Shown here: one piece after another, positions 25,572 to 58,999 of the stretch
Layout of the letters: each line of letters starts with the position of its first letter
Position numbering within the stretch: the stretch's first letter is position 1
Assembly (NCBI GenBank): GCA_030706735.1
Contig: JAUZNZ010000022.1
Location: forward strand, 1-64,000
Source: Bacteroidota bacterium
GTDB taxonomy: Bacteria; Bacteroidota; Bacteroidia; Chitinophagales; Chitinophagaceae
Reading direction: 5' to 3'
Length of the DNA: 64,000 nt
Notes under the pieces: generated by a model
The model's input: only the letters and a program-made list of their open reading frames with translations
The model's database searches: none
Told to the model about the DNA's origin: nothing
Program-made: the position numbers and the translations under genes

Positions 25572-25650
25572 GCCATGTCCTCTCTGTTGCCAAACCACAG
25601 CCGTTCCGCTGCGGTTTGTGGATCGATCCCCTGCCGGGCGCGCCGCGGGT

Positions 25651-25660
25651 TAGTCCACTA
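25651..25660. promoter_or_regulatory. Sulfur-regulon palindrome TAGTCCACTA (site 1)
   Basis: Perfect half-sites TAGT and ACTA around a 2-base centre, preceded by T. Its centre is 54.5 bases upstream of the -7 element of the cysH-operon promoter. It is one of five related sites in the sulfur cluster. Confidence 0.55.
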
Positions 25661-25685
25661 TTTCCATGGAGAAATACCAAAAAAT

Positions 25686-25717
25686 ATTGTTTAATTCCCA
25701 TTTCCGAACTATCTTTG
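25686..25717 (+). promoter_or_regulatory. Promoter of the cysH leader/operon
   Basis: -33 TTG at 25687-25689 and -7 TATCTTTG at 25710-25717 with a 20-base spacer, which fits the Bacteroidota consensus. The predicted start, near 25722, is about 20 bases before the leader-peptide ATG. Confidence 0.65.
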
Positions 25718-25727
25718 TCCATCATAA

Positions 25728-25737
25728 GAGTAGACTA
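25728..25737. promoter_or_regulatory. Sulfur-regulon palindrome GAGTAGACTA (site 2)
   Basis: One mismatch from TAGTAGACTA. It lies just downstream of the predicted transcription start, between promoter and leader peptide, a place where a bound protein would block or modulate elongation. Confidence 0.5.
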
Positions 25738-25741
25738 TATA

Positions 25742-25810
25742 ATGAACACCCTTTCGGCGCCCATATTGGAACTTTCTTTTTCCTGTTGCAACACGTGTTG
25801 TTGTTGCTGA
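25742..25810 (+). CDS. Cysteine-rich leader peptide, 22 aa, upstream of cysH
   Basis: A short ORF starting 5 bases after the palindrome at 25728. It encodes 22 residues beginning MNTLSAPILELSFS and ending Cys-Cys-Asn-Thr-Cys-Cys-Cys-Cys before TGA. Six cysteines in the last eight codons, directly ahead of the cysteine-biosynthesis operon, is the signature of an amino-acid-responsive leader: ribosome stalling at Cys codons when charged tRNA-Cys is scarce would change expression of the genes downstream. The cysH ATG is 55 bases after its stop. I found no convincing classical terminator in that gap, so the mechanism might be translational or Rho-linked rather than hairpin attenuation. Confidence 0.75.
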   Translation: MNTLSAPILELSFSCCNTCCCC

Positions 25811-25865
25811 TGCCTGTCTCCTCCAATAGTTCCCTCAGACCTATTTTTCCCTTTCAAACGCCAAT

Positions 25866-26609
25866 ATGGACCAACGAATACCGATACAAGAACAGCTTCC
25901 CGGATTACTCGACCAAGTAAGTAGATTAACCATCCGTGGGGCCCTGGAGCTATTGTCCTCTGCCTTTCCCGGGCAGGTGGTCTTCTCTACGAGCTTCAGC
26001 GCCGAAGACCAGGTCGTCGCACACGAGATCCTATCGGCCGGGCTGCCCATCCGGGTCTTCACGCTGGATACGGGGAGGCTGTTTGCGGAAACATATTCGG
26101 TATGGACGGGCACGAATGAGAAATATGGTACGCGCATCGAGGCCTATTATCCGGACAGGGCGTTGTTGGAGCCCTACCTCAATGAGCGGGGGCCGAACGC
26201 CTTCTACGAGTCGGTTGCGAACCGAAAGGACTGCTGCCATATCCGGAAGGTCGAGCCATTGAAGAGGGCGTTGAGGGGGAATGCGGTTTGGATAACCGGG
26301 CTGCGGGCCGAGCACTCTCCCGAGCGGCGGGATCATCGCGTGCTCGAGTGGGACGAGGGCAATGGGGTGATCAAATACAATCCCCTGTTGGACTGGGACA
26401 CGGCGGCCGTCCGCGCCTTCATCGACCGGAACGATATCCCCTACAATACGCTGCATGACCGGGGTTTCGTCAGCATCGGGTGTGCTCCCTGTACGAGGGC
26501 GATCCGGGCCGGCGAGGATTTCCGTGCGGGCAGATGGTGGTGGGAGGACAGCGCCGGAAAGGAATGCGGATTGCATGTCACGGAGGAAAAGGCGACGAGC
26601 CATTCATGA
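25866..26609 (+). CDS. cysH: Assimilatory adenylyl-sulfate (APS) reductase, 4Fe-4S type
   Basis: 247 residues. The PP-loop nucleotide motif is in VVFSTSFSAEDQVVAHEI. The cysteine pattern is decisive: KDCCHIRKVEPL (Cys-Cys) and, some 80 residues later, GCAPCTRAI (C-x2-C), which bind a 4Fe-4S cluster in enzymes that use APS directly. The catalytic cysteine is in the C-terminal KECGLH. The enzyme reduces APS to sulfite with thioredoxin or glutathione. No APS kinase gene (cysC) is seen in the operon, which agrees with APS rather than PAPS as substrate. It is the first enzyme gene of the operon cysH-cysD-cysN-cobA-cysJ-cysI. Confidence 0.92.
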   Translation: MDQRIPIQEQLPGLLDQVSRLTIRGALELLSSAFPGQVVFSTSFSAEDQVVAHEILSAGLPIRVFTLDTGRLFAETYSVWTGTNEKYGTRIEAYYPDRALLEPYLNERGPNAFYESVANRKDCCHIRKVEPLKRALRGNAVWITGLRAEHSPERRDHRVLEWDEGNGVIKYNPLLDWDTAAVRAFIDRNDIPYNTLHDRGFVSIGCAPCTRAIRAGEDFRAGRWWWEDSAGKECGLHVTEEKATSHS

Positions 26610-26633
26610 AGCGCAGGCGAACAAAGAAATAAA

Positions 26634-27548
26634 ATGACTATGAGCAAGTATCATACGGATTACCTGGATCAGCTGGAATCGGAATCGATCCACATCTTTC
26701 GCGAGGTGGCGGGTCAGTTCGAGCATCCGGCTTTGTTGTTCAGCGGCGGAAAGGATTCCATTACCCTGGTGCACCTGGCCCTGAAGGCCTTCAGGCCGGG
26801 CAAATTCCCGTTCCCCCTGGTGCATATCGATACGGGACATAATTTTCCCGAAGCCCTGTCCTTCCGGGACGAACTGGCGGCCAGCATCGGCGAAAAGCTG
26901 GTGGTGCGCAAGGTCGAGGACACGATCAGGAAGAGGCACCTGACGGAGCCTACCGGAAAGTTCGCGAGCCGCAACGCCTTGCAGACATTCACGCTGCTGG
27001 ATACCATCGAGGAATTCGGATTTGACGCCTGCATTGGCGGGGCCAGGCGGGATGAAGAGAAGGCGAGGGCCAAGGAGCGCATTTTTTCCGTGCGCGACGA
27101 GTTCGGAGGCTGGGACCCGAAGCGGCAGCGGCCCGAGCTTTGGAACACCTATAATGGAAGGATCCGCAAAGGCGAGAATGTGCGGGTATTTCCTATCAGC
27201 AACTGGACCGAGCTGGACATCTGGAACTATATCCGCCGGGAACAGATCGCCCTCCCGTCCATCTATTTCGCGCATGACCGCGAGGTGATCGATTACCAGG
27301 GGCAGCTGGTGGCCGTGTCCCCGTTTATACGGCTCGATCCAGCGGATGAGGTGCTGAGCCGGAGGGTTCGTTACCGCACGGTCGGGGATATGACCTGTAC
27401 GGCGGCTGTCGAGTCCAGCGCTTCGGGCATCGACGACATCATCCGGGAGATCACCGCCACGCGCACGAGCGAGCGCGGGGAGACGAGGATCGATGACAAG
27501 GTATCAGAAGCAGCGATGGAGGACAGGAAAAAGAACGGATACTTCTAA
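26634..27548 (+). CDS. cysD: Sulfate adenylyltransferase subunit 2
   Basis: 304 residues; the ATG at 26634 and a second ATG two codons later are both possible. The PP-loop is in LLFSGGKDSITLVHL, followed by VHIDTGHNFPEALSFRDEL and CIGGARRDEEKARAKERIFSVRDEFGGWDPK, all diagnostic for CysD. It ends with ERGETRIDDK and a short basic tail. It catalyses ATP + sulfate to APS, driven by GTP hydrolysis in its partner CysN, encoded 4 bases downstream. It is cytoplasmic, the first committed step of sulfate assimilation. Confidence 0.96.
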   Translation: MTMSKYHTDYLDQLESESIHIFREVAGQFEHPALLFSGGKDSITLVHLALKAFRPGKFPFPLVHIDTGHNFPEALSFRDELAASIGEKLVVRKVEDTIRKRHLTEPTGKFASRNALQTFTLLDTIEEFGFDACIGGARRDEEKARAKERIFSVRDEFGGWDPKRQRPELWNTYNGRIRKGENVRVFPISNWTELDIWNYIRREQIALPSIYFAHDREVIDYQGQLVAVSPFIRLDPADEVLSRRVRYRTVGDMTCTAAVESSASGIDDIIREITATRTSERGETRIDDKVSEAAMEDRKKNGYF

Positions 27549-27551
27549 ACA

Positions 27552-28799
27552 ATGACTATGGACCTATTACGATTTATAACGGCGGGCAGCGTGGATGACG
27601 GGAAGAGTACCCTGATCGGGCGTCTACTGTATGACAGCAAGAGCATTCTGACCGATCAGCTGGAAGCGCTGGAAAGACAGAGCCGGAACAAGGAAGACGG
27701 AGAGATCGACCTGGCCCTGCTGACGGACGGGCTGCGTGCAGAGAGGGAGCAGGGCATTACCATTGATGTCGCCTACAAATATTTTTCGACGCCGAAGCGC
27801 AAATTCATTATCGCCGACGCGCCGGGTCATATCCAGTACACGCGCAATATGGTCACGGGCGCGTCGAACGCCAACCTGATCATCATCCTGGTGGATGCGC
27901 GAAACGGCGTCGTAGAGCAGACCCGCCGCCATTCGATCATTGCGGGCCTGCTGAACATTCCGCATGTGGTCGTGGCCATCAACAAAATGGATCTGGTGGA
28001 CTATTCGCAGGATACCTATAACAATATTGCCATCGACTATGCGGAGATCGCACGCACGCTGAACCTGAAGGACGTGACCTATCTGCCGATCAGCGCGCTG
28101 AAGGGCGACAATATCGTAGAACGTTCGGCCAATCTGCCCTGGTATGAGGGCGACACTTTGCTGGAGCTCCTGGAAAGAACGGAGGTGGAGAAAGACGTCA
28201 ACCTGAGCTATGGCCGTCTGCCGGTGCAATATGTCATCCGTCCGCAGACGGATGAGCTGCATGATTACAGGGGCTATGCGGGAAAGATCATCAGCGGCAT
28301 TTATAAGAAGGGCGATGCCGTGACCATCCTCCCGGCGGGCCTCAGGAGCCGGATCAAGGCCATCGAGCGGGGAGGCGAGCAAGTGGAGGAGGCCTTTGCG
28401 CCGCAGAGCGTGGTGCTCCATCTTGAAGACGACCTGGACATCAGCCGTGGCGACCTGATCGCGAAGGACGACCATCTTCCGCGCGTCGAACAGGAAATGG
28501 AGGTGCTGCTCTGCTGGATGGACAGCAAGCCCCTGGTTGGCGGCAATAGATATCTGTTGCAGCTGGGCAGCCGGACGGTGCGCAGCGTCGTGAAGGAGAT
28601 CGAGTACCGGCTCGACGTGAACAGCCTGGAGAAGGACTATTCGACCCAACAGGCGGGGTTGAACGATATCGTCAAGGCCCGCATCCGGACGGCCACTCCC
28701 CTGCCCTACGACTCCTATGCGGAATTGCAGGTGAACGGCGGAGCCATCCTGATCGACGAAACCAGTCATGTTACGGTGGGGGCCTGCATGATACAATAG
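27552..28799 (+). CDS. cysN: Sulfate adenylyltransferase subunit 1 (GTPase)
   Basis: 415 residues of the elongation-factor-Tu-like GTPase family. The P-loop is TAGSVDDGKSTLIGRLLYDSK; switch I/II segments are EREQGITIDVAYKYFST and IADAPGHIQYTRNMVTGAS, and the base-recognition motif is VAINKMDLV. Two beta-barrel domains follow. It has no C-terminal APS-kinase extension, unlike CysNC fusions in other bacteria, again consistent with direct APS reduction. It works with CysD as a complex. The start at 27552 could be two codons later (ATG at 27558). Confidence 0.96.
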   Translation: MTMDLLRFITAGSVDDGKSTLIGRLLYDSKSILTDQLEALERQSRNKEDGEIDLALLTDGLRAEREQGITIDVAYKYFSTPKRKFIIADAPGHIQYTRNMVTGASNANLIIILVDARNGVVEQTRRHSIIAGLLNIPHVVVAINKMDLVDYSQDTYNNIAIDYAEIARTLNLKDVTYLPISALKGDNIVERSANLPWYEGDTLLELLERTEVEKDVNLSYGRLPVQYVIRPQTDELHDYRGYAGKIISGIYKKGDAVTILPAGLRSRIKAIERGGEQVEEAFAPQSVVLHLEDDLDISRGDLIAKDDHLPRVEQEMEVLLCWMDSKPLVGGNRYLLQLGSRTVRSVVKEIEYRLDVNSLEKDYSTQQAGLNDIVKARIRTATPLPYDSYAELQVNGGAILIDETSHVTVGACMIQ

Positions 28800-28805
28800 T
28801 GAACC

Positions 28806-29651
28806 ATGGAGAAGACAGTCAAATATAGCGGAAAAGTGATCCTTGTCGGCGCCGGACCGGGCGACCCGGAGCTGCTTACGGTGAAGGCCATGCGCTGGCT
28901 CCGCCAGGCCGACGTGGTCATTACGGACAGGCTGGTGAGCGACGCCATCCTGGAGGAATATGTGAATGAGCGGGCGGTCGTCCTGCATGTCGGCAAGGAG
29001 TGCAGAAAAGGCGCCTCGACGCCACAGTCCACGATCAACGAACTGCTGGTCGACTATGCAGGCCAGGGCAAGCTGGTCGTCCGGCTCAAAGGCGGCGATG
29101 CCTCCTTATTCTCCAACATCCTGGACGAGCTGCAGACCCTGACCTACCATGGGATCGCCTACGAGATCGTGCCGGGGGTGACCGCCGCATTGGGGGCCGC
29201 CGCCTATGCGGGGATCCCGTTGACGGCCCGGGGCTATTCGACGGCCTTGCGTCTGCTGACGGGGTACAAGCCGGACCTGTTGGACGCGGCGTACTGGGAG
29301 GACCTGGCAGGAACCGGGGATACACTGGCTTTTTATATGTCGGCTGCGCCGCTTGACGACATGGTGGAGAAGCTGCTGAAGCATGGCATCGGCCGGGACA
29401 AATGGCTGGCTGTGATCGAACAGGCGACCACCCCCATGCAGCGCGTCCGTTGCTGCCCGATCCATGAGTACCGCGGGAGTTCGGCGGGCCGGGAGAGTTC
29501 GGGCGGTTATGTTTCGCCGACCCTGATCATTATAGGCAAGGTAGCGGCCTTGCACGAACGATTCAAGTGGCTGCCCGACAGCGACAGCGGCGAGCTGTAT
29601 TTTAAACCGGTAGGCGACAACCATAAGATCAACGCGGAGGAGCGGGCCTGA
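28806..29651 (+). CDS. cobA: Uroporphyrinogen-III C-methyltransferase
   Basis: 281 residues. The N-terminal signature KVILVGAGPGDPELLTVKA and the second block VVRLKGGDASLFSN are characteristic of SUMT enzymes. The enzyme methylates uroporphyrinogen III twice with SAM to give precorrin-2, the first step to siroheme, the prosthetic group of the sulfite reductase encoded downstream. It lacks the dehydrogenase/ferrochelatase half found in E. coli CysG; that half is encoded at 38.1 kb as part of a fusion. A product-binding C-terminal region (SGGYVSPTLIIIGKVAALHE) is present. Confidence 0.94.
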   Translation: MEKTVKYSGKVILVGAGPGDPELLTVKAMRWLRQADVVITDRLVSDAILEEYVNERAVVLHVGKECRKGASTPQSTINELLVDYAGQGKLVVRLKGGDASLFSNILDELQTLTYHGIAYEIVPGVTAALGAAAYAGIPLTARGYSTALRLLTGYKPDLLDAAYWEDLAGTGDTLAFYMSAAPLDDMVEKLLKHGIGRDKWLAVIEQATTPMQRVRCCPIHEYRGSSAGRESSGGYVSPTLIIIGKVAALHERFKWLPDSDSGELYFKPVGDNHKINAEERA

Positions 29652-29679
29652 AGGTCCTTTCCTTGTGCCATAAAATACC

Positions 29680-31449
29680 ATGACCATGTTAACAGCACCG
29701 AAATTAAAGCTCATCCAGGAACTCGTCGAAGGGGCAACGCGCGAAGAGTTGATCTGGCTGAACGGCTATCTTGCCGGTCTCGTCGCCCAGGACGGGGAGC
29801 TGCCTTACTCCACATCGGCGGTTCCGGCGCCCGCCGCGCCCCTGGTGAACAAGATCACGATCGCCTACGGGACGGAAACGGGCAACGCGAAACGGCTCGC
29901 TACCGACTTTGCGGCCAAGGCGAAAAAAAATGGCATCAACGCCAAATTGGTCGGCCTGGAACAATACCGGTTGACCGATCTGCCGAAGGAAGAATACTTT
30001 TTCACGGTCATCAGCACGCAAGGCGATGGAGAGCCCCCCCTTGCAGCCAAGAAATTCTACGACCATATCCATAAAGAAGGCGGCAAGCTGGACAAGCTGA
30101 AATTCAGCGTCCTTGCGCTTGGAGATACGGCCTACCCGCTGTTTTGCAAGGCGGGCGAAGACGTGGACCGACAGTTGCAGGCGCTGGGCGGAGAGCGCGT
30201 CGTCACGATGCGGAAATGCGACACGGATTACGAGTTGGACTCGGCGCATTGGTTCGACGAGGTCCTGCAACGGCTCAAGGGCGGCCATCCGCAGCATGGG
30301 AATGGATCGGCGGCGGGGAATGGGACGACGACAGGGAATGGGTCGGCGACGGGTGTCGGATCGGTGGCGCCGGTCAGTCGAAAAACATCCGGGAAAAAGG
30401 TATATGCCGGCACGGTGCTGGCGAACATCAACCTGAACGACCGCGGGTCGGGAAAGCGAACGCACCACCTGGAGATCGTTGCCGACGAGCTCGATTACCA
30501 GCCCGGCGATTCCATCGGCATTGTCCCGGAAAACCCGTCGGTCTATGTGGACGGCATCCTTTCCCTGACGGGTATCGATCCGGTGCGTACCCTGCCCTAC
30601 CGGCATGATCAGTTACCGGTCTCGGAACTGCTGCGTAAGAAATTAAACGTTGTGTATCTCCCCGAGCGGGTGGTAAAGAAATATGCGGCGATCGTCAAGC
30701 AGGACATCCCCGAGACGAAGATCGGGCTGCTCGACCTGCTGAAGATCTATCCCGTGAAGGATACGGCGCAATTCGAACAGGTGATCGGCATCCTGGAACC
30801 GATCGCGCCCAGGCTCTACTCCATCTCCTCTTCTCCGGAAGCCCATTCGGGCGAGGTACATATCACGGTGGCCAGGGACAGCTTTCTCGTCAACGGCGAA
30901 CTGAAATACGGGCTGTGCTCCGACGGTCTCTCACAGCTGTCCGTCGACGAGTCCCTTGAATTCTATGTGCACCGCAATGCCCAGTTCAAATTGCCTGCCT
31001 CCGACAAAGATATCATTATGATCGGGCCCGGCACGGGGATCGCGCCGTTCCGTTCCTTTCTCGCGGAAAGGGATGCCACCGGTGCGAGCGGAAGGAACTG
31101 GCTGTTCTTCGGCGACCAGCATTTTACGACGGATTTCCTTTATCAGACCGAGATACAGAATTGGATCGAAACGGGCGTCCTTACCCGGGTCAATACTGCC
31201 TTTTCCCGGGATCAGCAGGAAAAAGTTTACGTTCAGCATAAGATCGCCCGGCATGGCGCCGACTTCTTCGAATGGTTGGAAGGAGGCGCCTTTGTTTACC
31301 TCTGCGGGGCGAAGGACCCGATGAGCGAGGACGTGGAAAAGGCCCTGCTGGACGTGATCCGGCAGCATGGCCGGCGCACCGGGGCACAGGCCCTGGCTTA
31401 CCTGGACGAGCTTCGCGAAGCGGGCCGATACCTAAAAGACGTTTATTAA
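29680..31449 (+). CDS. cysJ: Sulfite reductase flavoprotein subunit (diflavin reductase)
   Basis: 589 residues. The order is flavodoxin domain (about 50-190; ITIAYGTETGNAKRLATDFA, STQGDGEPPLAAKKF), a Gly/Asn/Ser/Thr repeat linker (about 205-230), the FAD-binding domain (RLYSISSSPEAHSGEVHITV) and the NADPH-binding domain (IGPGTGIAPFRSFLAERDATG, FFGDQHFTTDFLYQTEI). It ends in the family-typical aromatic YLKDVY. It passes electrons from NADPH through FAD and FMN to the hemoprotein subunit encoded 2 bases downstream. The linker is an 18-bp in-frame tandem repeat. Confidence 0.93.
   Translation: MTMLTAPKLKLIQELVEGATREELIWLNGYLAGLVAQDGELPYSTSAVPAPAAPLVNKITIAYGTETGNAKRLATDFAAKAKKNGINAKLVGLEQYRLTDLPKEEYFFTVISTQGDGEPPLAAKKFYDHIHKEGGKLDKLKFSVLALGDTAYPLFCKAGEDVDRQLQALGGERVVTMRKCDTDYELDSAHWFDEVLQRLKGGHPQHGNGSAAGNGTTTGNGSATGVGSVAPVSRKTSGKKVYAGTVLANINLNDRGSGKRTHHLEIVADELDYQPGDSIGIVPENPSVYVDGILSLTGIDPVRTLPYRHDQLPVSELLRKKLNVVYLPERVVKKYAAIVKQDIPETKIGLLDLLKIYPVKDTAQFEQVIGILEPIAPRLYSISSSPEAHSGEVHITVARDSFLVNGELKYGLCSDGLSQLSVDESLEFYVHRNAQFKLPASDKDIIMIGPGTGIAPFRSFLAERDATGASGRNWLFFGDQHFTTDFLYQTEIQNWIETGVLTRVNTAFSRDQQEKVYVQHKIARHGADFFEWLEGGAFVYLCGAKDPMSEDVEKALLDVIRQHGRRTGAQALAYLDELREAGRYLKDVY
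30298..30351. repeat. 18-bp tandem repeat in the cysJ linker
   Basis: GGGAATGG recurs at 30298, 30316 and 30334, giving three in-frame 18-base units that encode Gly-Asn-Gly-(Ser/Thr) blocks between the flavodoxin and FAD domains. Confidence 0.8.
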
Positions 31450-31450
31450 C

Positions 31451-33163
31451 ATGGCAACACCTACGAACGCGCAAACCCCGGCGGCCGACGCCAGGAACCT
31501 TTCCCCGACCGAACGGATCAAGCAACGGAGCGATGCCTTGAGAGGCACGCTGGTAGCCAGTCTTGAGAATGAGATCACCGGCGCCATCAGCGAGGACGAT
31601 ACGGCCCTGCTGAAGTTCCACGGCATGTACCAGCAGGACGACCGCGACCGGCGCGAGGAGCGCGCGGAGAAGAAGCTGGAACGCCTCTATTCCTTCATGA
31701 TCCGTTTGCGCCTGCCGGGCGGCTTCATGACCCCGGAGCAATGGATCGCGACCCATCATATCGCGGGCGAGTATTCGACCGGCACCATCAAGATCACGAC
31801 GCGCCAGACCTTGCAACTGCACGGGCTGCTTAAGTCGAAGATCAAGCCGACGATCCAGTCCTTCAGCAAGATCCATCTGGATTCGATCGCCGCCTGCGGG
31901 GACGTCAACCGGAATGTCGTTTGCGCGGCCCATCCGATGCAATCGGCGATCCATGAACAGGTTCATGCCTATGCGGCGCGCCTCAGCCAGTACATGCTGC
32001 CCAAGACGCGAGCCTACTACGAGATCTGGCTGGATGAAGAAAAGCTGACGGACAAGCAGGAGGAGAACGATCCGCTGTACCAGGACCGGTATTTGCCGAG
32101 AAAATTCAAGATCGCCCTCGGTATCCCGCCTAATAACGATATCGATGTCCTGGCCAATGACCTGGCGCTTATCGCGATCATCGAGAACGATGAGCTGAAG
32201 GGTTTCAATATTGCCATCGGCGGTGGATTGGGAGCGACCCATGGCAATCCGGACACCTACCCGAGGCTGGCGTCCGTGATCGGCTATTTATCCGTGGCGG
32301 ACGGGGACGAAAAGCTCTTCAAGGCGGCGTACGAGATCATTACGATACAACGTGACTATGGCAACCGGACGGACCGCAAGCTGGCCCGGCTGAAATATAC
32401 GATCGACAAATATGGCCTGGACTGGTACAAGCAGGAACTGGAGAAGCGGACGGGGTTTGCGCTGGAGGCGGCTCGTCCTTTCGAGTTCACCGACCGTGTG
32501 GACTATTACGGCTGGGAGCAAAACCACCAGGGACTGTGGTACTATACCCCCTTCATCGAGAGCGGTCGCATCCTGGATGACGAGCGGCTTCCGCTGAAGA
32601 CGGCCCTGTTGGAGATCGCCCAAACCGGGAAGGCGAACTTCCGGTTCACCTGCAACCAGAACCTCATCCTGGCGGATATCCGGAAGAAGGACAAGGCCTC
32701 GATCGAGAAGATCCTGCACAAATACGGCATTATCGCACATACCGAAGCGGCATCTGCCATCCGCAAGAACTCGATCGCCTGCGTGGCCTTGCCCACTTGC
32801 GGTCTGGCGCTGGCCGAGGCGCAGCGATATCTGCCCTCGCTCATCGGGAAGATCGAGCCCTTGCTGGGACAGCATGGATTGAGCGAAGAGAAGATCATCA
32901 TCCGGATGACGGGTTGTCCCAATGGCTGCGGGCGCCCCTATACCGCGGAAATAGGCCTGGTCGGCACGGCGCCCGGGCGTTACAATATGCACCTGGGCGC
33001 GGATCACGAGGGAACGCGTCTCAATCGCCTCTATAAGGAGAACCTGGATGAGGCGACGATCCTTTCGGAGTTGGATCTGTTGTTCCGGCTGTATAAGAAA
33101 GAGCGTGCGACGGGCGAGACCTTCGGGGATTTCGCCCTGCGGCAGCGCTGGTATAAATGGTAG
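31451..33163 (+). CDS. cysI: Assimilatory sulfite reductase hemoprotein subunit
   Basis: 570 residues. The siroheme and 4Fe-4S ligands are visible near the C-terminus: CVALPTCGLALAE (C-x5-C) and RMTGCPNGCGRPYTAE (C-x3-C). Earlier blocks TTRQTLQLHGLLK and CGDVNRNVVCAAHP are also classic for NAD(P)H-type sulfite reductase. The enzyme reduces sulfite to sulfide in the cytoplasm with six electrons from the CysJ partner. It is the last gene of the operon; a hairpin with a T-run follows directly. The size is normal for the family. Confidence 0.96.
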   Translation: MATPTNAQTPAADARNLSPTERIKQRSDALRGTLVASLENEITGAISEDDTALLKFHGMYQQDDRDRREERAEKKLERLYSFMIRLRLPGGFMTPEQWIATHHIAGEYSTGTIKITTRQTLQLHGLLKSKIKPTIQSFSKIHLDSIAACGDVNRNVVCAAHPMQSAIHEQVHAYAARLSQYMLPKTRAYYEIWLDEEKLTDKQEENDPLYQDRYLPRKFKIALGIPPNNDIDVLANDLALIAIIENDELKGFNIAIGGGLGATHGNPDTYPRLASVIGYLSVADGDEKLFKAAYEIITIQRDYGNRTDRKLARLKYTIDKYGLDWYKQELEKRTGFALEAARPFEFTDRVDYYGWEQNHQGLWYYTPFIESGRILDDERLPLKTALLEIAQTGKANFRFTCNQNLILADIRKKDKASIEKILHKYGIIAHTEAASAIRKNSIACVALPTCGLALAEAQRYLPSLIGKIEPLLGQHGLSEEKIIIRMTGCPNGCGRPYTAEIGLVGTAPGRYNMHLGADHEGTRLNRLYKENLDEATILSELDLLFRLYKKERATGETFGDFALRQRWYKW

Positions 33164-33166
33164 GGG

Positions 33167-33198
33167 CGCGGGTTTCGGGAGCCCGCGAAAATTTTTTC
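33167..33198 (+). terminator. Intrinsic terminator after cysI
   Basis: Stem CGCGGG (33167-33172) with CCCGCG (33182-33187), extended by a T-G and a T-A pair, followed by AAAATTTTTT. It separates the reductase operon from the transporter operon. Confidence 0.8.
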
Positions 33199-33200
33199 CT

Positions 33201-33214
33201 ATTAGTCTACTAAT
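33201..33214. promoter_or_regulatory. Sulfur-regulon palindrome (site 3), perfect 6-bp arms
   Basis: ATTAGT and ACTAAT around a central CT. The centre lies 23.5 bases upstream of the -7 element at 33231. There is no -33 TTG; the palindrome occupies that position, which fits an activator site. Confidence 0.65.
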
Positions 33215-33230
33215 TTAATAGAGAATAATA

Positions 33231-33238
33231 TATATTTG
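33231..33238 (+). promoter_or_regulatory. -7 element TATATTTG of the transporter operon
   Basis: An exact TAnnTTTG match. The predicted transcription start falls at or beside the ATG at 33243, so the first short ORF could be translated from a leaderless or nearly leaderless message. Confidence 0.6.
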
Positions 33239-33242
33239 CGCC

Positions 33243-33323
33243 ATGAACAAGAATCAGACAGGCCTTTACGTAGCAGTTCGTCTTCCCAAGCACTATTGTC
33301 CTGCGGGACATCTCACCGACTGA
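33243..33323 (+). CDS. Putative leader peptide, 26 aa, upstream of porin/ABC-transporter genes
   Basis: A 26-residue ORF beginning MNKNQTGLYVAV and ending YCPAGHLTD, 5 bases after the -7 element and 67 bases before the porin ATG. It has a single cysteine, near the end (tyrosine-cysteine-proline). By analogy with the Cys-rich leader at 25.7 kb it may sense cysteine supply or a related signal. A small hairpin (TGTCC/GGACA, loop TGCG, 33297-33310) overlaps its Cys-Pro codons, and a T-run starts at 33332. Whether it is translated is unproven. Confidence 0.45.
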   Translation: MNKNQTGLYVAVRLPKHYCPAGHLTD

Positions 33324-33357
33324 CGACGCTATTTTTTTGTCCATATACTCTATCATT

Positions 33358-33369
33358 TTAGTAGACTAA
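33358..33369. promoter_or_regulatory. Sulfur-regulon palindrome (site 4) just upstream of porin
   Basis: TTAGT and ACTAA around a central AG, 21 bases before the porin ATG and downstream of the predicted promoter and leader ORF. Confidence 0.6.
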
Positions 33370-33390
33370 TAAACCAAGCCATTTCATTTT

Positions 33391-34584
33391 ATGAGATCGA
33401 AAATACTGACCTTTTTTGCCGCTACCCTGCTATTCGCCGCCGCCGTCAGGGCCCAGACGCCCAATGATGTGTTGAACATCCTGGTCCAGAAGGGCACGAT
33501 CACCCGGGAGGAGGCGGATTCGATTCGGGCCGACTATGCGATCAAACAACAGGATGCGCTCGCCAAAGCCCGAAGCTTTCCCCTTGGCTCCAGCCGTCTG
33601 CTGCAACTGAGTGGTTACACCCAGGTCCGCTACAATTCGTTCCAACAGAAAGGGAAGGCCGACGGCTTCGATATCAGGCGGGCCAGGCTGGACTTCCAGG
33701 GAGATTTCACAAAGAAGTGGGGCTATCGCCTGCTGATCGATTTTGCAGGGAACTCCGGTGCGAACGGTAGTGCGGCCACGGGAGGGGCCCTGGTCTCTCC
33801 CTTGCTGCTGGACGCCTTCGTCGCCTACAAGCCGGGGGACTATCTGAAGGTCACGGCGGGCCAGTTCACCATTCCCTTTTCGCTGGAGAACCTGACCCAG
33901 GACCGGTTGCTGGAAACGGCTGACCGTTCGCAGGTGGTGAGCGCACTCGTGTCGCGGAAGGGTGACGGCTCGAACAATATCGTCGATTCGGTAGGGAACC
34001 AGAATGGCCGCGACCTCGGCCTGCAGTTCAGCGGCAGCTTGTTCGGCAGCGGGGATCGAAAGATCGTCGATTACTACCTGGCCCTTCTGAACGGGGCGGG
34101 CATCGACGTCGTTGACAATAACGAATTCAAGGACTTCGTCGGACGGCTTGCCTTCCATCCCGTCAAGGCCCTTTCCATTGCCGGTAACTATTATAATGGC
34201 TTCGACCGGTTCAGTTCTTCCCCGACGAAGGATCAAAATCGCATCCGCTGGGGAGGCGACCTGTTGCTCGATCTGAACCGTTTCACCGCCCGGGCCGAAT
34301 GGTTGAAGGGGGAAGACGGCAATGTCAATCCCACTGTGCACGAGGGATGGTATGCGCAGGGCAGCTATTTCGTGGTGCCGAAGATCGTTCAGCTTGTCTT
34401 CCGCTATGATACGTACAACCCGAATAAGGACAAGGTGCACGTCACCAATACCTATTATGTGTTCGGAACCAACCTGTATTTTAATAGCTGGACGAAACTG
34501 CAGCTGAACTACTCCCGGAGGACGGAGTCGGGTGCGGACGTCAACAACGACCTGCTTACGGCCCAATTACAAATCTCCTTTTAA
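33391..34584 (+). CDS. Porin_O_P family outer-membrane oxyanion porin
   Basis: 397 residues. A signal peptide (ILTFFAATLLFAAAVRAQT) is followed by a short coiled N-terminal segment (LVQKGTITREEADSIRADYAIKQ) and then the barrel opening LQLSGYTQVRYNSFQ and FDIRRARLDFQGDFTKKWGYRL, characteristic of the OprO/OprP group of anion-selective porins. It ends in a terminal strand LTAQLQISF with the C-terminal Phe expected for barrel insertion. The family is named for phosphate and polyphosphate, but the gene lies under sulfur-regulon palindromes and leads an ABC-transporter operon, so sulfate is the likelier substrate here. Confidence 0.88.
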   Translation: MRSKILTFFAATLLFAAAVRAQTPNDVLNILVQKGTITREEADSIRADYAIKQQDALAKARSFPLGSSRLLQLSGYTQVRYNSFQQKGKADGFDIRRARLDFQGDFTKKWGYRLLIDFAGNSGANGSAATGGALVSPLLLDAFVAYKPGDYLKVTAGQFTIPFSLENLTQDRLLETADRSQVVSALVSRKGDGSNNIVDSVGNQNGRDLGLQFSGSLFGSGDRKIVDYYLALLNGAGIDVVDNNEFKDFVGRLAFHPVKALSIAGNYYNGFDRFSSSPTKDQNRIRWGGDLLLDLNRFTARAEWLKGEDGNVNPTVHEGWYAQGSYFVVPKIVQLVFRYDTYNPNKDKVHVTNTYYVFGTNLYFNSWTKLQLNYSRRTESGADVNNDLLTAQLQISF

Positions 34585-34608
34585 ACTCACTGACTAAACG
34601 CACTGACC

Positions 34609-35556
34609 ATGAACCTCAGCAAGAACAGTATGACCTGGATCGCGGCCGGCCTTTGCTGGGCGGCGCCGTTCGTCCAGCCGGGAGGCGCTCCGCGGGACGC
34701 GGGCAGCATCAGTATTTCCGGCGCTTTTGCGCTATATCCTCTGACCGTGAAATGGGCGGGGGAATTCCGGAAGATCCATCCGGAGATCAAGATCGACATT
34801 TCCGCCGGGGGCGCGGGGAAGGGCATCACGGATGTGCTATCGGGGGTGACCGATATCGGCCTTGTCTCCCGCGACCTGACTCCGGAGGAAACAAAGAAAG
34901 GCGCATTCCCGATCGCGGTCACCAAGGACGCTGTGATCCCTACGATCAGCGCCGGCAACCCCTTTCTGAAAGAATTACAGGCCAGGGGGCTAAAGAAGGC
35001 GGCACTTAACGGCATCTTCATAACCGGACAGATCACGAGTTGGGGCCAGGCTGGCCTGGCTACCCATGCTCCCGTTCATGTATATACGCGATCGGATGCG
35101 GCGGGCGCTGCCGAAACCTGGGCGCTTTATTTTGGCAAGAAGCAGGAAGATCTGCAAGGCGTGGCGGTCTATGGGGACCCCGGCCTGGCGCTTGCGGTAA
35201 AGAAGGACCCGGCAGGCATCGGCTACAATAATATCGTCTACGTCTATGATGCGCAGACCAGGCAACCGACGAACGGCGTGGTGCCTTTGCCGATCGATCT
35301 GAACAATAATGGCCGGATCGATCCGGACGAGCAGTTCTACGGCAATATCGATCAACTCACCGGCGCGATCGCGGCAGGGAAATATCCCGCCCCGCCGGCC
35401 CGGGACCTCTATTTTGTCACGAAGGGCGGGATCCGGAACCCGGCCGTCAAATCATTCATCCAATGGGTATTGACCGAAGGGCAGAAATACGTCAAAGAGG
35501 CCGGGTATATCAATCTGTCCGCGGAGAAGATCAACGCGGGATTGAAAAAGCTGTGA
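34609..35556 (+). CDS. PstS-like periplasmic oxyanion-binding protein
   Basis: 315 residues with a short signal segment (WIAAGLCWAAPFVQP). The mature protein opens ISISGAFALYPLTVKWAGEF and carries SAGGAGKGITDVLSG and DIGLVSRDL, the layout of PstS-type PBP domains. The anion-binding loop departs from the usual PstS wording (GSTF / SGGG), so phosphate specificity is not given. The gene is 24 bases after the porin and its stop overlaps the permease start (GTGA). Location within the sulfate cluster suggests that it binds sulfate or another oxyanion; this is inference. Confidence 0.85.
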   Translation: MNLSKNSMTWIAAGLCWAAPFVQPGGAPRDAGSISISGAFALYPLTVKWAGEFRKIHPEIKIDISAGGAGKGITDVLSGVTDIGLVSRDLTPEETKKGAFPIAVTKDAVIPTISAGNPFLKELQARGLKKAALNGIFITGQITSWGQAGLATHAPVHVYTRSDAAGAAETWALYFGKKQEDLQGVAVYGDPGLALAVKKDPAGIGYNNIVYVYDAQTRQPTNGVVPLPIDLNNNGRIDPDEQFYGNIDQLTGAIAAGKYPAPPARDLYFVTKGGIRNPAVKSFIQWVLTEGQKYVKEAGYINLSAEKINAGLKKL

Positions 35557-36449
35557 CCCGGGTCCGCCTGATCAAGGACAGGATCAGCGGCAAGCTGTTC
35601 CTCGCGTTCACTCTCTTGTCGATCCTGTTGGTCGTATTTGTCGGGATCGGGCTATACGGAAAATCGGTCCCGATCCTCCGACAGTCCTCGCTAAGCCATC
35701 TGCTGTTCAGCCGGGAATGGAAACCGTTCAAGAACCGGTTCGGGTTCCTGCCCTATATCGCGGGTTCGGTACTTGTTACCGGCCTGGCCATCCTGATCGC
35801 CTTGCCACTTTCGCTGATGACGGCGGTCTTCATTTCGGAATACGTGCCGAATCGTATTAAACGCCTGCTCGTCCCGTTCATCGATCTGCTTTCGGGTATT
35901 CCGCCGGTGATCTATGGCGTATGGGGGGTACTGACCATCGTGCCGTTCATACAGGACCGGATCGCCCCGCATTTCGTCGAGTTCTCCTCCGGTTACAGCG
36001 CCCTTGCCGGAGGACTGGTGCTGGCGGTGATGATCTTTCCGCTGATCATCAGCATTCTGTTGGAAGTATTCGGGACGGTTCCACAGGAGTTGCGTGACGC
36101 CTCCTTATCCCTGGGCGCCAATCAATGGGAAACGGTTTATCGCGTCGTGCTGCGGAAATCGGCGCCGGGCATCCTGGCGGCAACGGTGCTTGCGGTATCC
36201 CGGGCGCTGGGCGAAACGATCGCCGTGCTCATGGTCTGCGGCAATCAGACGGCATTTCCCCATTCGGTGCTGGATCCTGTTTATCCGCTGCCGGCGCTGA
36301 TTGCCAATAATTATGGGGACATGATGTCGATCCCGCTGTACGACTCCGCGCTGATGCTGGCGGCGCTGATCCTGTTCGTCATCATCCTGCTATTCAACGG
36401 GCTGTCGCGGGTCGTTCTGTACCGCCTGGAAAGGAGGAACAACGAATGA
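35553..36449 (+). CDS. pstC: Pst-type ABC transporter permease (PstC family)
   Basis: 298 residues from a GTG at 35553 that overlaps the TGA of the binding-protein gene; no ATG is suitably placed and the longer upstream frame would run through that gene. The protein has six hydrophobic helices, and the inner-membrane permease signature is intact: FGTVPQELRDASLSLGANQWETVYRVVLRKSAPGI (EAA loop), and FIDLLSGIPPVIYGVWG earlier. It forms the membrane channel with the PstA partner, whose ATG overlaps its stop. The symbol reflects family, not proven phosphate transport. Confidence 0.88.
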   Translation: MTRVRLIKDRISGKLFLAFTLLSILLVVFVGIGLYGKSVPILRQSSLSHLLFSREWKPFKNRFGFLPYIAGSVLVTGLAILIALPLSLMTAVFISEYVPNRIKRLLVPFIDLLSGIPPVIYGVWGVLTIVPFIQDRIAPHFVEFSSGYSALAGGLVLAVMIFPLIISILLEVFGTVPQELRDASLSLGANQWETVYRVVLRKSAPGILAATVLAVSRALGETIAVLMVCGNQTAFPHSVLDPVYPLPALIANNYGDMMSIPLYDSALMLAALILFVIILLFNGLSRVVLYRLERRNNE

Positions 36450-37288
36450 GCAGAAAATTCAAGGCAGCCCTTTTCAAGATCTTGATGATCTTGTCGACCC
36501 TGATCATTTCCGGGTCGCTTATCCTGATCCTATGGACCATTGCCTCCAGAGGGGTCCATGCCTTGACCTGGGAGCTGGTTTCCAGGCTACCCGAAGGCGG
36601 ATTTTATATCGGTAAGGGAGGTGGACTATTGAATGCGATCCTCGGCTCGCTCTATATCACGGTAGGGTCTACCCTGTTGGGCCTGCTGATCGCCGTGCCC
36701 GTCGTCCTCTACCTGAACGTGTATTCCAGGGAAGGCTCCAGATTGGCGACGGTCGTACGCTTTACCTTCGACGTGTTGTTTGGCATCCCGTCGATCGTCT
36801 ATGGAGCCTTCGGTTTTACCATCATGGTTTGGTTGGGCCTGCGGGCCTCGCTATTGGCGGGCATCGTGACCGTGACGCTGGTGATCATCCCGATCCTCGC
36901 CCGGGCTATGGATGAAGTAATGCGCCGGACGCCGGGAGAGCTATCGGACCAGACCTACTCGCTGGGCGCGACGCGATGGGAGACGTCGCTCGTTTTTTTG
37001 CGGCAATGCGCGCCGGGCATCATGACGGCCATCCTATTGGCTTCCGGCAGGGCGATCGGAGATGCCGCCAGTGTATTGTTCACCGCGGGGTATACCGACA
37101 ACCTGCCCGGCTCGCTCACCCAACCGGCGGCCACCCTGCCGCTGGCGATCTTTTTTCAACTGAGCAGTCCCATAGCGGAAGTCCAGGACCGGGCCTACGG
37201 CGCCGCCCTGATCCTGACGGCGATCGTGCTGCTGTTCAGCCTTAGCGCCCATTATTTCAGCAAACGTTTGTCAAAGAACAAAATATGA
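36446..37288 (+). CDS. pstA: Pst-type ABC transporter permease (PstA family)
   Basis: 280 residues starting in an ATGA overlap with the previous gene. The family blocks are GGLLNAILGSLYITVGSTLLG, FDVLFGIPSIVYGAFGF and the EAA loop VMRRTPGELSDQTYSLGATRWETSLVFL, with six membrane helices in all. It pairs with the PstC-family permease as the heterodimeric channel. Its own stop overlaps the ATPase start (ATGA), so the whole transporter is translationally coupled. As for its neighbours, sulfate is the proposed substrate from context. Confidence 0.88.
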   Translation: MSRKFKAALFKILMILSTLIISGSLILILWTIASRGVHALTWELVSRLPEGGFYIGKGGGLLNAILGSLYITVGSTLLGLLIAVPVVLYLNVYSREGSRLATVVRFTFDVLFGIPSIVYGAFGFTIMVWLGLRASLLAGIVTVTLVIIPILARAMDEVMRRTPGELSDQTYSLGATRWETSLVFLRQCAPGIMTAILLASGRAIGDAASVLFTAGYTDNLPGSLTQPAATLPLAIFFQLSSPIAEVQDRAYGAALILTAIVLLFSLSAHYFSKRLSKNKI

Positions 37289-38049
37289 CCTTCGAAGCTC
37301 CGCATATCCGCGTACAAGACCTGAACGTCCATATCGGCGATCATCATATCCTGAAAAATATCAGCCTGGACATTCCCGACAAAAAGATCACCTCCTTCAT
37401 CGGTCCTTCCGGCTGCGGCAAGACCACCCTGTTGAAAACCTTCAACCGGCTGCTCGACCGCAACAAGGAGGTCCGGATCGGCGGGAGGGTCCTTGTGGAC
37501 GGAGAGGATATCTATGGCAAAGACGTCGAAGTGACGGGCATGCGCAGGAAAATGGGATTGTTGTCCCAGCGGCCCTTCCCGCTGCCGATGAGCATTTATG
37601 ACAATATCGCCTATGGTCCGCGCATTCACGGCACGCGAAGGAAAAAGGAGTTGAACGGGACGGTCGAGCATTATTTGCGCGCTACCGGCCTGTGGGAGGA
37701 GGTGAAAGACCGGCTGGGCAGTCCGGCCACGCGATTGTCGATCGGCCAGCAGCAGCGGCTCTGCCTGGCCCGGGGCCTGGCCGTGGAGCCCGAGATCATC
37801 CTGGGCGATGAGCCGACGTCGGCCCTTGACCCGCTGTCCACGCAACGCATCGAGGAATTGTTCCTGCAGTTGAAAGACAGGTATACCATCGTCCTGGTGA
37901 CGCATATCCTGCGTCAGGCCAGGAGGCTGTCCGACTATATCGTGTTCATATATATGGGCGAGATCATCGAATTCGGGCCAACGGAAGAAGTGCTGCTGGA
38001 CCCAAAGGAAAGACTGACCAGGGAATATGTAAAAGGGTACATTAGCTAA
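37285..38049 (+). CDS. pstB: Pst-type ABC transporter ATP-binding protein (PstB family)
   Basis: 254 residues. Walker A is GPSGCGKTT (residues 40-48), the Q-loop region LLSQRPFPLPMSIYDNIAYGPRIHG is the classic PstB phrase, and Walker B is ILGDEPTSALDP. The ABC signature reads LSIGQQQR rather than LSGGQQQR, and the residue before the Walker B aspartate is Gly instead of the usual hydrophobic. It powers import through the two coupled permeases. No phoU or phoBR follows, unlike many phosphate operons; the next gene belongs to siroheme and sulfite handling. Confidence 0.9.
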   Translation: MTFEAPHIRVQDLNVHIGDHHILKNISLDIPDKKITSFIGPSGCGKTTLLKTFNRLLDRNKEVRIGGRVLVDGEDIYGKDVEVTGMRRKMGLLSQRPFPLPMSIYDNIAYGPRIHGTRRKKELNGTVEHYLRATGLWEEVKDRLGSPATRLSIGQQQRLCLARGLAVEPEIILGDEPTSALDPLSTQRIEELFLQLKDRYTIVLVTHILRQARRLSDYIVFIYMGEIIEFGPTEEVLLDPKERLTREYVKGYIS

Positions 38050-38055
38050 CTAAAA

Positions 38056-38065
38056 TAGTAGACTA
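38056..38065. promoter_or_regulatory. Sulfur-regulon palindrome TAGTAGACTA (site 5)
   Basis: TAGT/ACTA half-sites around AG. The centre is 33.5 bases upstream of the -7 element at 38094, exactly 10 bases more than at the transporter promoter, that is about one helical turn. Confidence 0.65.
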
Positions 38066-38093
38066 ATTCCGGCGGATTCCGGCTGAATATCGC

Positions 38094-38101
38094 TAATTTT
38101 G
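38094..38101 (+). promoter_or_regulatory. -7 element TAATTTTG of the siroheme/TSUP gene
   Basis: An exact TAnnTTTG match 10 bases before the ATG at 38111, implying a very short leader. No -33 TTG is seen, in keeping with activator dependence. Confidence 0.6.
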
Positions 38102-38110: not shown

Positions 38111-39694
38111 ATGCAGTCTGACCATCCCATATCGCCAAATTCCGCGGACCCTGGGGAAAGACCTGCGGACCTTGCGGCAGGACACAATAATCTGTTCCCG
38201 GTCTTCATCAAGCTCGAGCAATTGCGGTTGCTGATCGTAGGCGGCGGAAATGTGGGATTGGAGAAGCTGCAGGCCGTCCTGCAAAACTCTCCGGCCACCC
38301 GCATCAGGCTGGTGGCGTCTTCCATCAGTGAAAATGTGAGGGAATTGGCGGCGGGCTATCCGGGTGTCGAATTGCTCGAACGGCCTTACCTGACCGAAGA
38401 CCTGGATCAGGCCGACCTGGTGATCGTGGCGGTCAATGACCGTGAGATCAGCCGGACCATCGGCTGCGAAGCCAAGGGCAGGGGGAAGCTCGTCAACGTA
38501 GCGGACACACCGGACCTCTGCGATTTTTATCTAAGCTCCATTGTCAGGAAGGGAAACCTCAAGATCGCCATTTCGACGAATGGCAAATCCCCCACCATCG
38601 CCAAGCGGCTGAAAGAAGAGATCAACGAGATGATCCCCGACGAGATCGAGGGTGTCTTGCAGAATATGCAGACCATCCGGCAGCGGATGAACGGCGATTT
38701 TTCCGAAAAGGTCCGGCAACTCAATGACCTGACGAAGGTATTGGTCGCCAAACAGGCGACTCCGGATCCGCTCCTGCCCGTCAAACGGAAGGAGAGCAAG
38801 TGGCAGAAGGTGGTCAAGTGGTGTCTGTTCGCGTTCTTCTTCATGATCCTCGGGCATGGCCTCCTCTCCTATCTGCCTTTACACCGTTTCGGGGAGCTGA
38901 CCGACGACATCTGGCATGATGTGACCACACCCTCCTTTCTCATGATGGTGATGACGGGTTTCATTGCGCAAATGGTAGACGGCTCGCTGGGCCTGGGTTA
39001 CGGCACCATTTCCACGACCTTCCTGTTGGCCAATGGCGTGAGCCCGGCGATCGTGAGCAGCCGCGTGCATTCGGCGAGGGTATTTTCATCCGGCGTTTCG
39101 GGATACAGCCATCACCGGTTCGGGAATATCAACAAAAAATTATTCAAGGCGTTGGTAGTCCCCGGGATCGTCGGGGCAGTCATCGGGGCGAGCCTCGCCT
39201 ATTTCGGCAAGGCTTATGCGGACCAGGTACGCATACCCGTTTCCCTCTATACGGTATACCTTGGCTATTATATCCTGCGGAAGGCGTTCAGGCGGAGGCA
39301 GCATGGAGACAAGGTCAAGCGGGCGGGGTGGCTGGCGTCTGCGGGAGGCTTTGTAGATGCGTTTGCGGGAGGTGGCTGGGGCACCCTGGTTACGAGCACG
39401 TTGATCTCGAAGCGGCGCAATCCGCGGTATGTCGTCGGATCGGTATGCCTCGCCGAATTCTTCGTCGTGCTTGCCAGCTCGATCACCTTCTTTATCTTCC
39501 TTAAAGATATTCCCCTGCGGGATGTGGCGGGTCTGATCGCAGGCGGCCTGATCGCCGCGCCTATCGCGGCCAGGCTGGTCGGCAAGTTCCCCATCAAGAC
39601 CATGTTCATCGCCGTCGGTTTGCTCGTGATCATTACCAGCTGCAGCACCTTATGGAAGGCCGTGTCGCACGTGCTCGCGCAACTACATCACTAG
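38111..39694 (+). CDS. Fusion of precorrin-2 dehydrogenase/ferrochelatase domain with TSUP (TauE/SafE) permease
   Basis: 527 residues from the ATG at 38111 (the in-frame TTG at 38099 lies inside the -7 element). The N-terminal part (about 25-215) is a siroheme-synthase NAD domain: LRLLIVGGGNVGLEKLQ, LVIVAVNDREISRTIG, LVNVADTPDLCDFYLSSIVRKGNLKIAISTNGKSP. A linker with basic residues leads to a membrane part (about 235-525) of eight or so helices with the TSUP pattern GFIAQMVDGSLGLGYGTISTTFLL and, in the second half, GFVDAFAGGGWGTLVTSTLI. The first domain would convert precorrin-2 to siroheme for CysI; the second probably moves sulfite, sulfate or another sulfur anion. The 3' end overlaps the convergent acyl-protein synthetase gene by 12 bases. 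Confidence 0.9.
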   Translation: MQSDHPISPNSADPGERPADLAAGHNNLFPVFIKLEQLRLLIVGGGNVGLEKLQAVLQNSPATRIRLVASSISENVRELAAGYPGVELLERPYLTEDLDQADLVIVAVNDREISRTIGCEAKGRGKLVNVADTPDLCDFYLSSIVRKGNLKIAISTNGKSPTIAKRLKEEINEMIPDEIEGVLQNMQTIRQRMNGDFSEKVRQLNDLTKVLVAKQATPDPLLPVKRKESKWQKVVKWCLFAFFFMILGHGLLSYLPLHRFGELTDDIWHDVTTPSFLMMVMTGFIAQMVDGSLGLGYGTISTTFLLANGVSPAIVSSRVHSARVFSSGVSGYSHHRFGNINKKLFKALVVPGIVGAVIGASLAYFGKAYADQVRIPVSLYTVYLGYYILRKAFRRRQHGDKVKRAGWLASAGGFVDAFAGGGWGTLVTSTLISKRRNPRYVVGSVCLAEFFVVLASSITFFIFLKDIPLRDVAGLIAGGLIAAPIAARLVGKFPIKTMFIAVGLLVIITSCSTLWKAVSHVLAQLHH

Positions 39695-40654: not shown

Positions 40655-40717
40655 GGTCGGTTTAGTCAACGAATTGCAAAAATTCAAACAATAGTGGCCA
40701 TTTTACGCAAAAATAGG

Positions 40718-58588: not shown

Positions 58589-58999
58589 ATGCTGTCTAAA
58601 AAAACGCAATATGCTTTCCAGGCGCTGATGTACCTGGCTGAAAAAGAAAAAGAGGAGCCGGTGCTGATCGCTGAGATTGCCAGGAAGAAGAAGATCCCCC
58701 TGAAATTCCTGGAGAACATCCTCCTGGAGATGAAGAATGCGGGCATCCTGGAAAGCAAGAAAGGAAAGGGAGGAGGTTATTACTTTGCCAAGAACCCCAA
58801 GGAAGTGCAGTTAGCGACCGTCATTCGTTTGCTGGATGGCCCCATTTCGCTGCTGCCCTGCGTCAGCCTATACTTTTATGAGCGTTGCAAGAACTGCGAT
58901 GAAAAGCACTGCGGACTGAACGCCGTGATGGCGCAGGTACGCGATGCAAACCTCCGGATATTGGAAAAAAAGACGATTGCCGACCTGGCCAGGCGATAA
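58589..58999 (+). CDS. Rrf2-family transcriptional regulator with cysteine cluster
   Basis: 136 residues. The winged helix is that of Rrf2 proteins: KKTQYAFQALMYLAEKE, LIAEIARKKKIPLKFLENIL and the wing SKKGKGGGYYFAKNP. A cysteine group at C91, C100, C103 and C108 (LPCVSLYFYERCKNCDEKHC) matches the position where IscR-type members bind an Fe-S cluster, although the spacing differs from E. coli IscR. Family members sense Fe-S status, cysteine or nitric oxide. It is a reasonable candidate for controlling the sulfur genes at 25-39 kb, but no palindrome of that type was seen at this gene. Confidence 0.92.
   Translation: MLSKKTQYAFQALMYLAEKEKEEPVLIAEIARKKKIPLKFLENILLEMKNAGILESKKGKGGGYYFAKNPKEVQLATVIRLLDGPISLLPCVSLYFYERCKNCDEKHCGLNAVMAQVRDANLRILEKKTIADLARR

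Follow-up and report, generated by a model that had tools for sequence, protein, structure and literature searches.

Paired palindromes in a Chitinophagaceae sulfur cluster as predicted operators of a probable Rrf2-family repressor, with a candidate poly-cysteine leader as a second layer of control

Cysteine metabolism in Bacillus and Staphylococcus is repressed by CymR, a protein of the Rrf2 family that acts with CysK (PMC2869319). In actinobacterial cys leaders, runs of Cys codons lie close to the stop, terminators are absent and Rho has been suggested to act (PMC1262725), while the uORFC-8-2 motif of Rhodobacterales, an upstream open reading frame (uORF) with tandem Cys codons before cysS, has been described as an attenuation signal with an intrinsic terminator (PMC8632094); these statements cover the available portions of the three papers. 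No account of the regulation of cysteine synthesis in Bacteroidota was found in a literature search that left most subscription journals outside. Here we analysed positions 1 to 64,000 of contig JAUZNZ010000022.1 (assembly GCA_030706735.1; this 64,000-nucleotide stretch is called the window) from a bacterium of the family Chitinophagaceae, whose sulfur cluster, headed by cysH, carries a recurrent palindromic 10-mer. The palindromes are read as halves of the landing sites of a probable repressor of sulfur-uptake and cysteine genes. With a probability of about 0.7, we propose a two-layer sulfur switch in which Rrf2 repression would be combined with leader attenuation; binding, the signal or ligand, the sign of regulation and the mechanism are all inferred from sequence.

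The original prediction had taken five palindromes as marks of the regulatory regions of the sulfur cluster, and the sites themselves were confirmed. The 10-mer TAGTNNACTA occurs exactly at 25651, 33203, 33359 and 38056 and, with one mismatch (GAGTAGACTA), at 25728. No further exact copy lies in the 64 kb (0.05 expected; none of 100 shuffles reached four), and all five sites are intergenic, being located before cysH, twice between cysI and a porin gene, and between pstB and a siroheme/TSUP gene. The original prediction, without an exhaustive scan, had noticed no copies outside the sulfur cluster. This holds within the window, but the genome-wide motif scan proposed as a check found 16 exact copies in 5.05 Mb. 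The window accounts for four, and of the remaining 12 a single copy, on contig C35, belongs to a full dyad; the other 11 had no match of at least 10 bits to the operator matrix (see below) in the fetched surroundings, and 4 of the 12 fall within open reading frames (ORFs) of 120-578 aa. Because most outside copies lack an operator match and four are found within ORFs, the bare 10-mer is not specific.

The motif boundaries had to be redrawn, in that the 10-mers are half-sites of a 27-bp dyad, ATTAGTCTAC-N7-GTAGACTAAT. A cysH search gave a match in 95 of 147 family genomes, and 90 were used, the source genome included; five with weak matches of 28-34% identity (G058, G007, G063, G070 and G079; G, C and L numbers denote genomes, contigs and loci) were left out. 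The pattern TTAGTCTAC-Nx-GTAGACTAA was scanned over the 90 cysH upstream regions with the spacer x varied. A spacer of 7 was found at 13 or more of 18 matches in 41 regions (2 in shuffles, 1-14 for other spacers) and at 14 or more in 28 (0 in shuffles, 0-3 for other spacers), so that spacer 7 alone is enriched. A symmetric matrix built from 55 sites, this genome's cysH site among them, gave the consensus ATTAGTCTACCAAATTGGTAGACTAAT, whose 27 symmetric bases agree with the long inverted repeat (about 23-27 bp) of Rrf2-type operators. On the window the matrix found six places at 8 bits or more, all in the sulfur cluster, and the maximum in 30 resampled windows was 12.1 bits. Five of the predicted operators are centred at 25662, 25726, 33214, 33357 and 38054, with the sixth at 25917 inside cysH.

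A leave-own-out model (R2) was built from 40 sites of relatives only, the genome's own sites being kept out, and was also applied to 15 chosen relatives. In the 5.05-Mb genome it ranked position 126678 of C35 first (E 5e-5), then 33201 (E 0.007), 33345 (E 0.012) and 25714 (E 0.35) of the window, followed by places on C70 (E 2.1) and C18 (E 2.8). The predicted operators at 38041 and 25649 were not recovered by R2 at E<=10, and these two are the weaker claims. In 53 of the 90 genomes the 450 bp ahead of the cysH match contained a site of at least 15 bits, and an operator precedes the siroheme/TSUP ortholog in G126 and G034; the expectation that the sites are conserved and mark a sulfur regulon was thus borne out.

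The probable operator binder is an Rrf2-family regulator encoded at 58589..58999 on the forward strand (as are all features below unless stated), the sole PF02082 match in the genome (124.3 bits against a cut-off of 30). Its closeness to the proteins in Puia dinghuensis records (88-90% identity) and in Flavitalea sp. (88%) suggests, for this one protein, that the bacterium is probably Puia-like. Rrf2 homologs, paralogs counted, were found in 121 of the 147 family genomes. Of the 76 genomes that have an Rrf2 ortholog, defined at 178 bits or more, 51 had a site of at least 15 bits near cysH, versus 2 of the 14 that lack one (Fisher 6e-4). An Rrf2 gene and cysH are no more than 1.8 kb apart in at least 22 of the 90 genomes, a lower bound since positions were compared for 29 chosen genomes; 21 of these are on the same strand, and the G101 copy is only 44% identical. 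Seventeen of the 22 loci were used further, the Rrf2 ORF not having been located in the fetched stretch of G003, G118, G049, G021 and G091. In 16 of the 17 a site of at least 11.5 bits followed Rrf2 within 900 bp (shuffle maximum 10.5), in 12 within about 100 bp, and the plain consensus pattern recovered 15 of the 17. In the clade with rrf2 adjoining cysH (L116, L117, L119, L126 and L135), the operator drifts to CCTAC-N7-GTAGGG, which perhaps co-evolved with the clade's Rrf2 protein. The cysteines C91, C100, C103 and C108, spaced C-x8-C-x2-C-x4-C, were invariant in all 44 collected Rrf2 sequences (only ORFs matching the start motif and GGY were compared; L067, L079 and L080 were missed), and we would guess that they hint at a metal or Fe-S sensor. 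Autoregulation of rrf2 was considered and set aside: no site of at least 12 bits was found in 30 loci, and where rrf2 adjoins cysH the site mostly comes after it. Two operators in G116 (L263) are flanked by an Rrf2 paralog of 45% identity and, opposite it, by a DUF2490 gene and a PstS-like gene.

The position of the operators relative to predicted promoters bears on the sign of regulation. The core operator O2 (25713..25739, holding the 25728 site; 20.3 bits, leave-own-out E 0.35) overlaps the predicted -7 element of the cysH promoter, TATCTTTG at 25710..25717, an instance of TAnnTTTG, which is given as the flavobacterial sigma-A consensus in the available part of PMC9723704. At cysH, TAnnTTTG overlaps the left operator half in 27 of the 90 genomes, in register -3 in 23 and -4 in 4. 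This overlap, in a nearly fixed register, suggests polymerase occlusion and favours repression over the activation originally proposed. Upstream of the promoter lies O1 (25649..25675, holding the 25651 site), weak at 13.7 bits; similar upstream sites, 42-64 bp from the core site, were seen in G071, G029, G039, G087, G096, G015 and G114. A further predicted operator, O3 (25904..25930, 15.5 bits), falls inside cysH at about codons 13-22, and 60 synonymous recodings of cysH reached 6.3 bits at most. In 18 of the 90 genomes a site scoring more than 12 bits lies around the beginning of cysH, either within the coding part or immediately ahead of it; in 17 none of 60 synonymous recodings reached the site score, the exception being G039 (p 0.02).

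The original prediction had also placed the palindromes in helical phase. Its distances of 54.5, 23.5 and 33.5 to TATCTTTG at 25710, TATATTTG at 33231 and TAATTTTG at 38094 are correct. Re-measured from the dyad centres, however, the distances at the three promoters are 48, 17 and 40, and because these differ by 31 and 23 the coincidence is lost. Twenty long operator spacings in relatives shared no common phase (R=0.07, p=0.91), so that strictly phased looping is not favoured; flexible looping is compatible with them. Eight short spacings above 30 bp did fall close to whole turns (R=0.83, p=0.004), but this subset was picked after seeing the data and includes close relatives, and six more of 26-27 bp did not fit whole turns.

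Between O2 and cysH, at 25742..25810, lies a leader ORF, MNTLSAPILELSFSCCNTCCCC, which the earlier reading missed along with the operator inside cysH. Poly-Cys ORFs, with at least three Cys in the last eight residues and within 330 bp before cysH, were found in 36 of the 90 genomes, compared with 0-2 in ten shuffles, 2 on the reverse strand and 1 in a control stretch. The arrangement is that of a leader-peptide attenuator, a short ORF with codons of the regulated amino acid close upstream, and the tiny Cys-rich peptide gene is probably a second cysteine sensor. Composition and pairing were analysed without the doubtful leaders of G018 and G107, the second ORF being taken for G034. C exceeded G in 34 of 35 leader-to-cysH spacers versus 16 of 35 upstream controls, although G-poor leaders may be general in Bacteroidota, and a Rho gene is encoded in the genome. 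Pairing between the leader and the start region of cysH exceeded expectation (mean z -0.62, p 6e-4, n=37), with no significant effect at three control targets. No Rfam match was found in 22-42 kb. Rho-dependent and translational attenuation are both compatible with the data. Six genomes, G004, G104, G062, G144, G026 and G101, have a poly-Cys leader but neither a full Rrf2 ortholog nor a 15-bit site; the two layers are therefore separable.

In the proposed switch, an Rrf2 dimer would occupy the operators when cysteine or sulfur is plentiful and block RNA polymerase, and sulfur limitation would release it. Transcripts that start would carry the leader ORF ending in its run of Cys codons, which would act as the second layer: with scarce Cys-tRNA, a ribosome stalled on the leader would free the cysH start codon, mask a C-rich Rho-loading stretch, or both, and cysH would be expressed. 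The extra operators in cysH and just before the porin gene could serve as roadblocks or cooperative sites. A fuller version, a two-tier control for Chitinophagaceae, is put forward tentatively, as we consider it rather more likely to fail in some part than to hold in all. In it, the four-Cys Rrf2 protein would sense sulfur supply via a metal or Fe-S cluster, operators would bracket promoter and leader with one within the cysH coding sequence, the poly-Cys leader would sense Cys-tRNA, and the Pst-like transporter with its porin in this genome, like the TonB receptors of relatives, would be co-switched importers of sulfur compounds.

Several observations weigh against the proposed switch. On the side of the regulator, 25 of the 76 ortholog-bearing genomes lack a 15-bit site near cysH, although 16 of the 17 Rrf2-neighbour loci have a site farther up, after Rrf2, in a test that is not wholly independent, as several sites of this clade also trained the matrix. 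G023 and G037 carry sites and gave no Rrf2 match, whereas their congeners G120 and G128 did. No operator of at least 12 bits was found in the 30 Rrf2 loci L051-L080, that is, no sign of autoregulation where Rrf2 lies elsewhere. The best solved-structure matches, the BadM/Rrf2 protein 4cic and CymR 2y75, have no Cys in the aligned cysteine-cluster region. On the side of the leader, the pairing effect is small, with only 6 of 37 at z<-1.5, the fold of the window leader is no stronger than that of shuffles (z 1.13), and a terminator scan of 25550-25950 gave no intrinsic terminator-like site, the feature of a classical attenuator. As for the targets, a link to sulfur is not evident for several of the operator-bearing genes in relatives, and 5 of 9 operator-bearing TonB loci (L257, L258, L259, L261 and L262) have no poly-Cys ORF.

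Four other explanations were weighed. The most serious, which we still consider unlikely, is that cysteine is sensed mainly or solely through the poly-Cys ORF and that the operators answer to iron, Fe-S status, redox or similar. The six genomes keeping a poly-Cys leader without full ortholog or 15-bit site would fit this, as would a Cys cluster recalling Fe-S Rrf2 proteins, but the operators in this genome concentrate on sulfur genes. Somewhat less likely again, the operator could be genuine and bound by another transcription factor, the adjacency of Rrf2 in relatives being an accident of clustering. The regulator gene here does sit next to dapB, some 20 kb away from the closest operator, and two genomes have sites without an Rrf2 match. 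Such an accident would have to account, however, for the adjacency to cysH in at least 22 of 90 genomes, for sites directly after the Rrf2 gene (12 of 17 within about 100 bp) and for the co-occurrence of site and ortholog; moreover, the size of the dyad resembles the 11-3-11 bp repeat reported for the Rrf2 protein RsrR in the available part of PMC5015018.

If the dyads were bound by an activator, Rrf2 or other, that recruits polymerase from helically phased positions, O1 and O6 would be suitably placed upstream of their promoters and the eight short spacings above 30 bp near whole turns would be explained. The overlap of core operator and -7 element in 27 of 90 genomes, the unphased long spacings and the coincidence that vanished on measuring from dyad centres make this improbable. 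Chance recurrence of a common AT-rich word of intergenic DNA accords with the 11 of 16 exact genome copies that are not full operators, but it can hardly be reconciled with 0.05 copies expected in the window, the enrichment of spacer 7, the resampled windows, the leave-own-out ranking, the co-occurrence with Rrf2 and the conservation observed before orthologous genes, and its probability is negligible.

The predicted regulon in this genome comprises the cysHDN-cobA-cysJI operon, the porin/Pst-like operon, the siroheme/TSUP gene and a gene on C35 without a Pfam match. The cysH-cysD-cysN-cobA-cysJ-cysI operon spans 25866..33163. It is followed by O4 (33201..33227; 27.6 bits, leave-own-out E 0.007), which ends 3 bp before the porin-operon -7 element TATATTTG (33231-33238), and by O5 (33344..33370; 27.4 bits, E 0.012) immediately ahead of the porin gene; several TonB genes likewise have a second site a short way upstream of their start. 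Between O4 and O5, MNKNQTGLYVAVRLPKHYCPAGHLTD (33243..33323) is a possible leader ORF of candidate function with one Cys codon only, and the porin gene of G127 is likewise preceded by a one-Cys ORF. A porin O/P-like gene and Pst-like ABC transporter genes occupy 33391..38049, and the transporter may carry sulfate. The window PstS is below the phosphate-family cut-off (105 of 206.6 bits), and a second PstS-like match was seen on C90. O6 (38041..38067; 17.0 bits) precedes the siroheme/TSUP gene and its -7 element TAATTTTG (38094-38101); its E is 0.26 with a model that includes O6, and it is supported by strong sites upstream of the G126 and G034 orthologs. The gene itself (38111..39694; ATG 38111 chosen, the listed ORF starting at TTG 38099) fuses a siroheme-synthase N-domain to a TauE/SafE (TSUP) domain in 531 aa. 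The two parts are separate neighbouring genes in G126 and G034 (L253, L267) and fused in G029, G002, G036 and G071. A LuxE-like acyl-protein synthetase gene on the opposite strand (39683-40687) closes the sulfur cluster. The best operator of the genome, at 34.2 bits, lies on C35 (L018:4979-5005) and precedes the 366-aa gene without a Pfam match (5114-6214); in G029 (L264), about 1.2 kb separates an operator from a relative of this gene with 61% identity.

At the loci looked at in relatives, operators were found near cysH, siroheme/TSUP genes, TonB receptors, luciferase-like monooxygenase and fatty-acid-hydroxylase-like genes, and others. A poly-Cys ORF lay between the promoter-side operator and the TonB receptor gene at 4 of 9 loci (L252 of G035, L253 of G126, and L254 and L267 of G034). 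An ATP-grasp-like gene and a luciferase-like monooxygenase gene (PF00296) in G055 (L269, 1851-4016) have operators upstream of them and possibly serve sulfonate or sulfone use. In the wider class, cysH was found at E<=1e-50 in 36 of 198 genomes. Among 27 class loci examined, a poly-Cys ORF was present in four (L284, L288, L295 and L297; L284 doubtful) and a site of at least 11 bits within 1.5 kb in five, and the combined operator and leader system looks mainly a trait of the family Chitinophagaceae.

Across a large family, the operator model predicts a regulon that can be tested, and it points to possible sulfur roles for transporters not yet characterised, for TonB receptors and for the C35 gene. 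The poly-Cys leaders, if true, would extend an actinobacterial mode of control to another phylum and to outer-membrane uptake genes. No prior description of two-tier sulfur control in Chitinophagaceae was found in the literature searched.

Compared with described systems, the locus shares with uORFC-8-2 a uORF with tandem Cys codons as attenuation signal and differs from that motif, as the available part of its description has it, in that a terminator and a tRNA synthetase target are present there, whereas no terminator was found here (PMC8632094). With CymR the regulator shares the Rrf2 fold family and, as predicted, a role at cysteine and sulfur genes, while a poly-Cys leader, found here, is not mentioned for CymR in the available part of its account (PMC2869319). 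The phylum also differs, and structure 2y75 has no Cys where this regulator has four invariant ones. Because of this cysteine cluster the regulator is not classed as CymR, the absence of a C-terminal cysteine cluster as a CymR trait being our own reading. A conserved C-terminal cysteine cluster is instead a likeness to the Fe-S and redox Rrf2 proteins IscR, RirA, NsrR and RsrR, as is, for RsrR, the long inverted-repeat operator (11-3-11 bp in the part of PMC5015018 available). The present protein departs from these four in its C-x8-C-x2-C-x4-C spacing, in that its Fe-S cluster is putative, and in its predicted targets in sulfur assimilation. Cysteine-responsive attenuation has reportedly been described in mycobacteria by Canestrari in 2020. 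The poly-Cys leaders of actinobacteria, as the available part of their description presents them, are likewise short ORFs that precede cys genes, have Cys codons close to their stop and lack a terminator hairpin (PMC1262725). The leader in this window differs from them in its phylum and in being joined to a promoter-overlapping predicted operator and a start-codon pairing signal.

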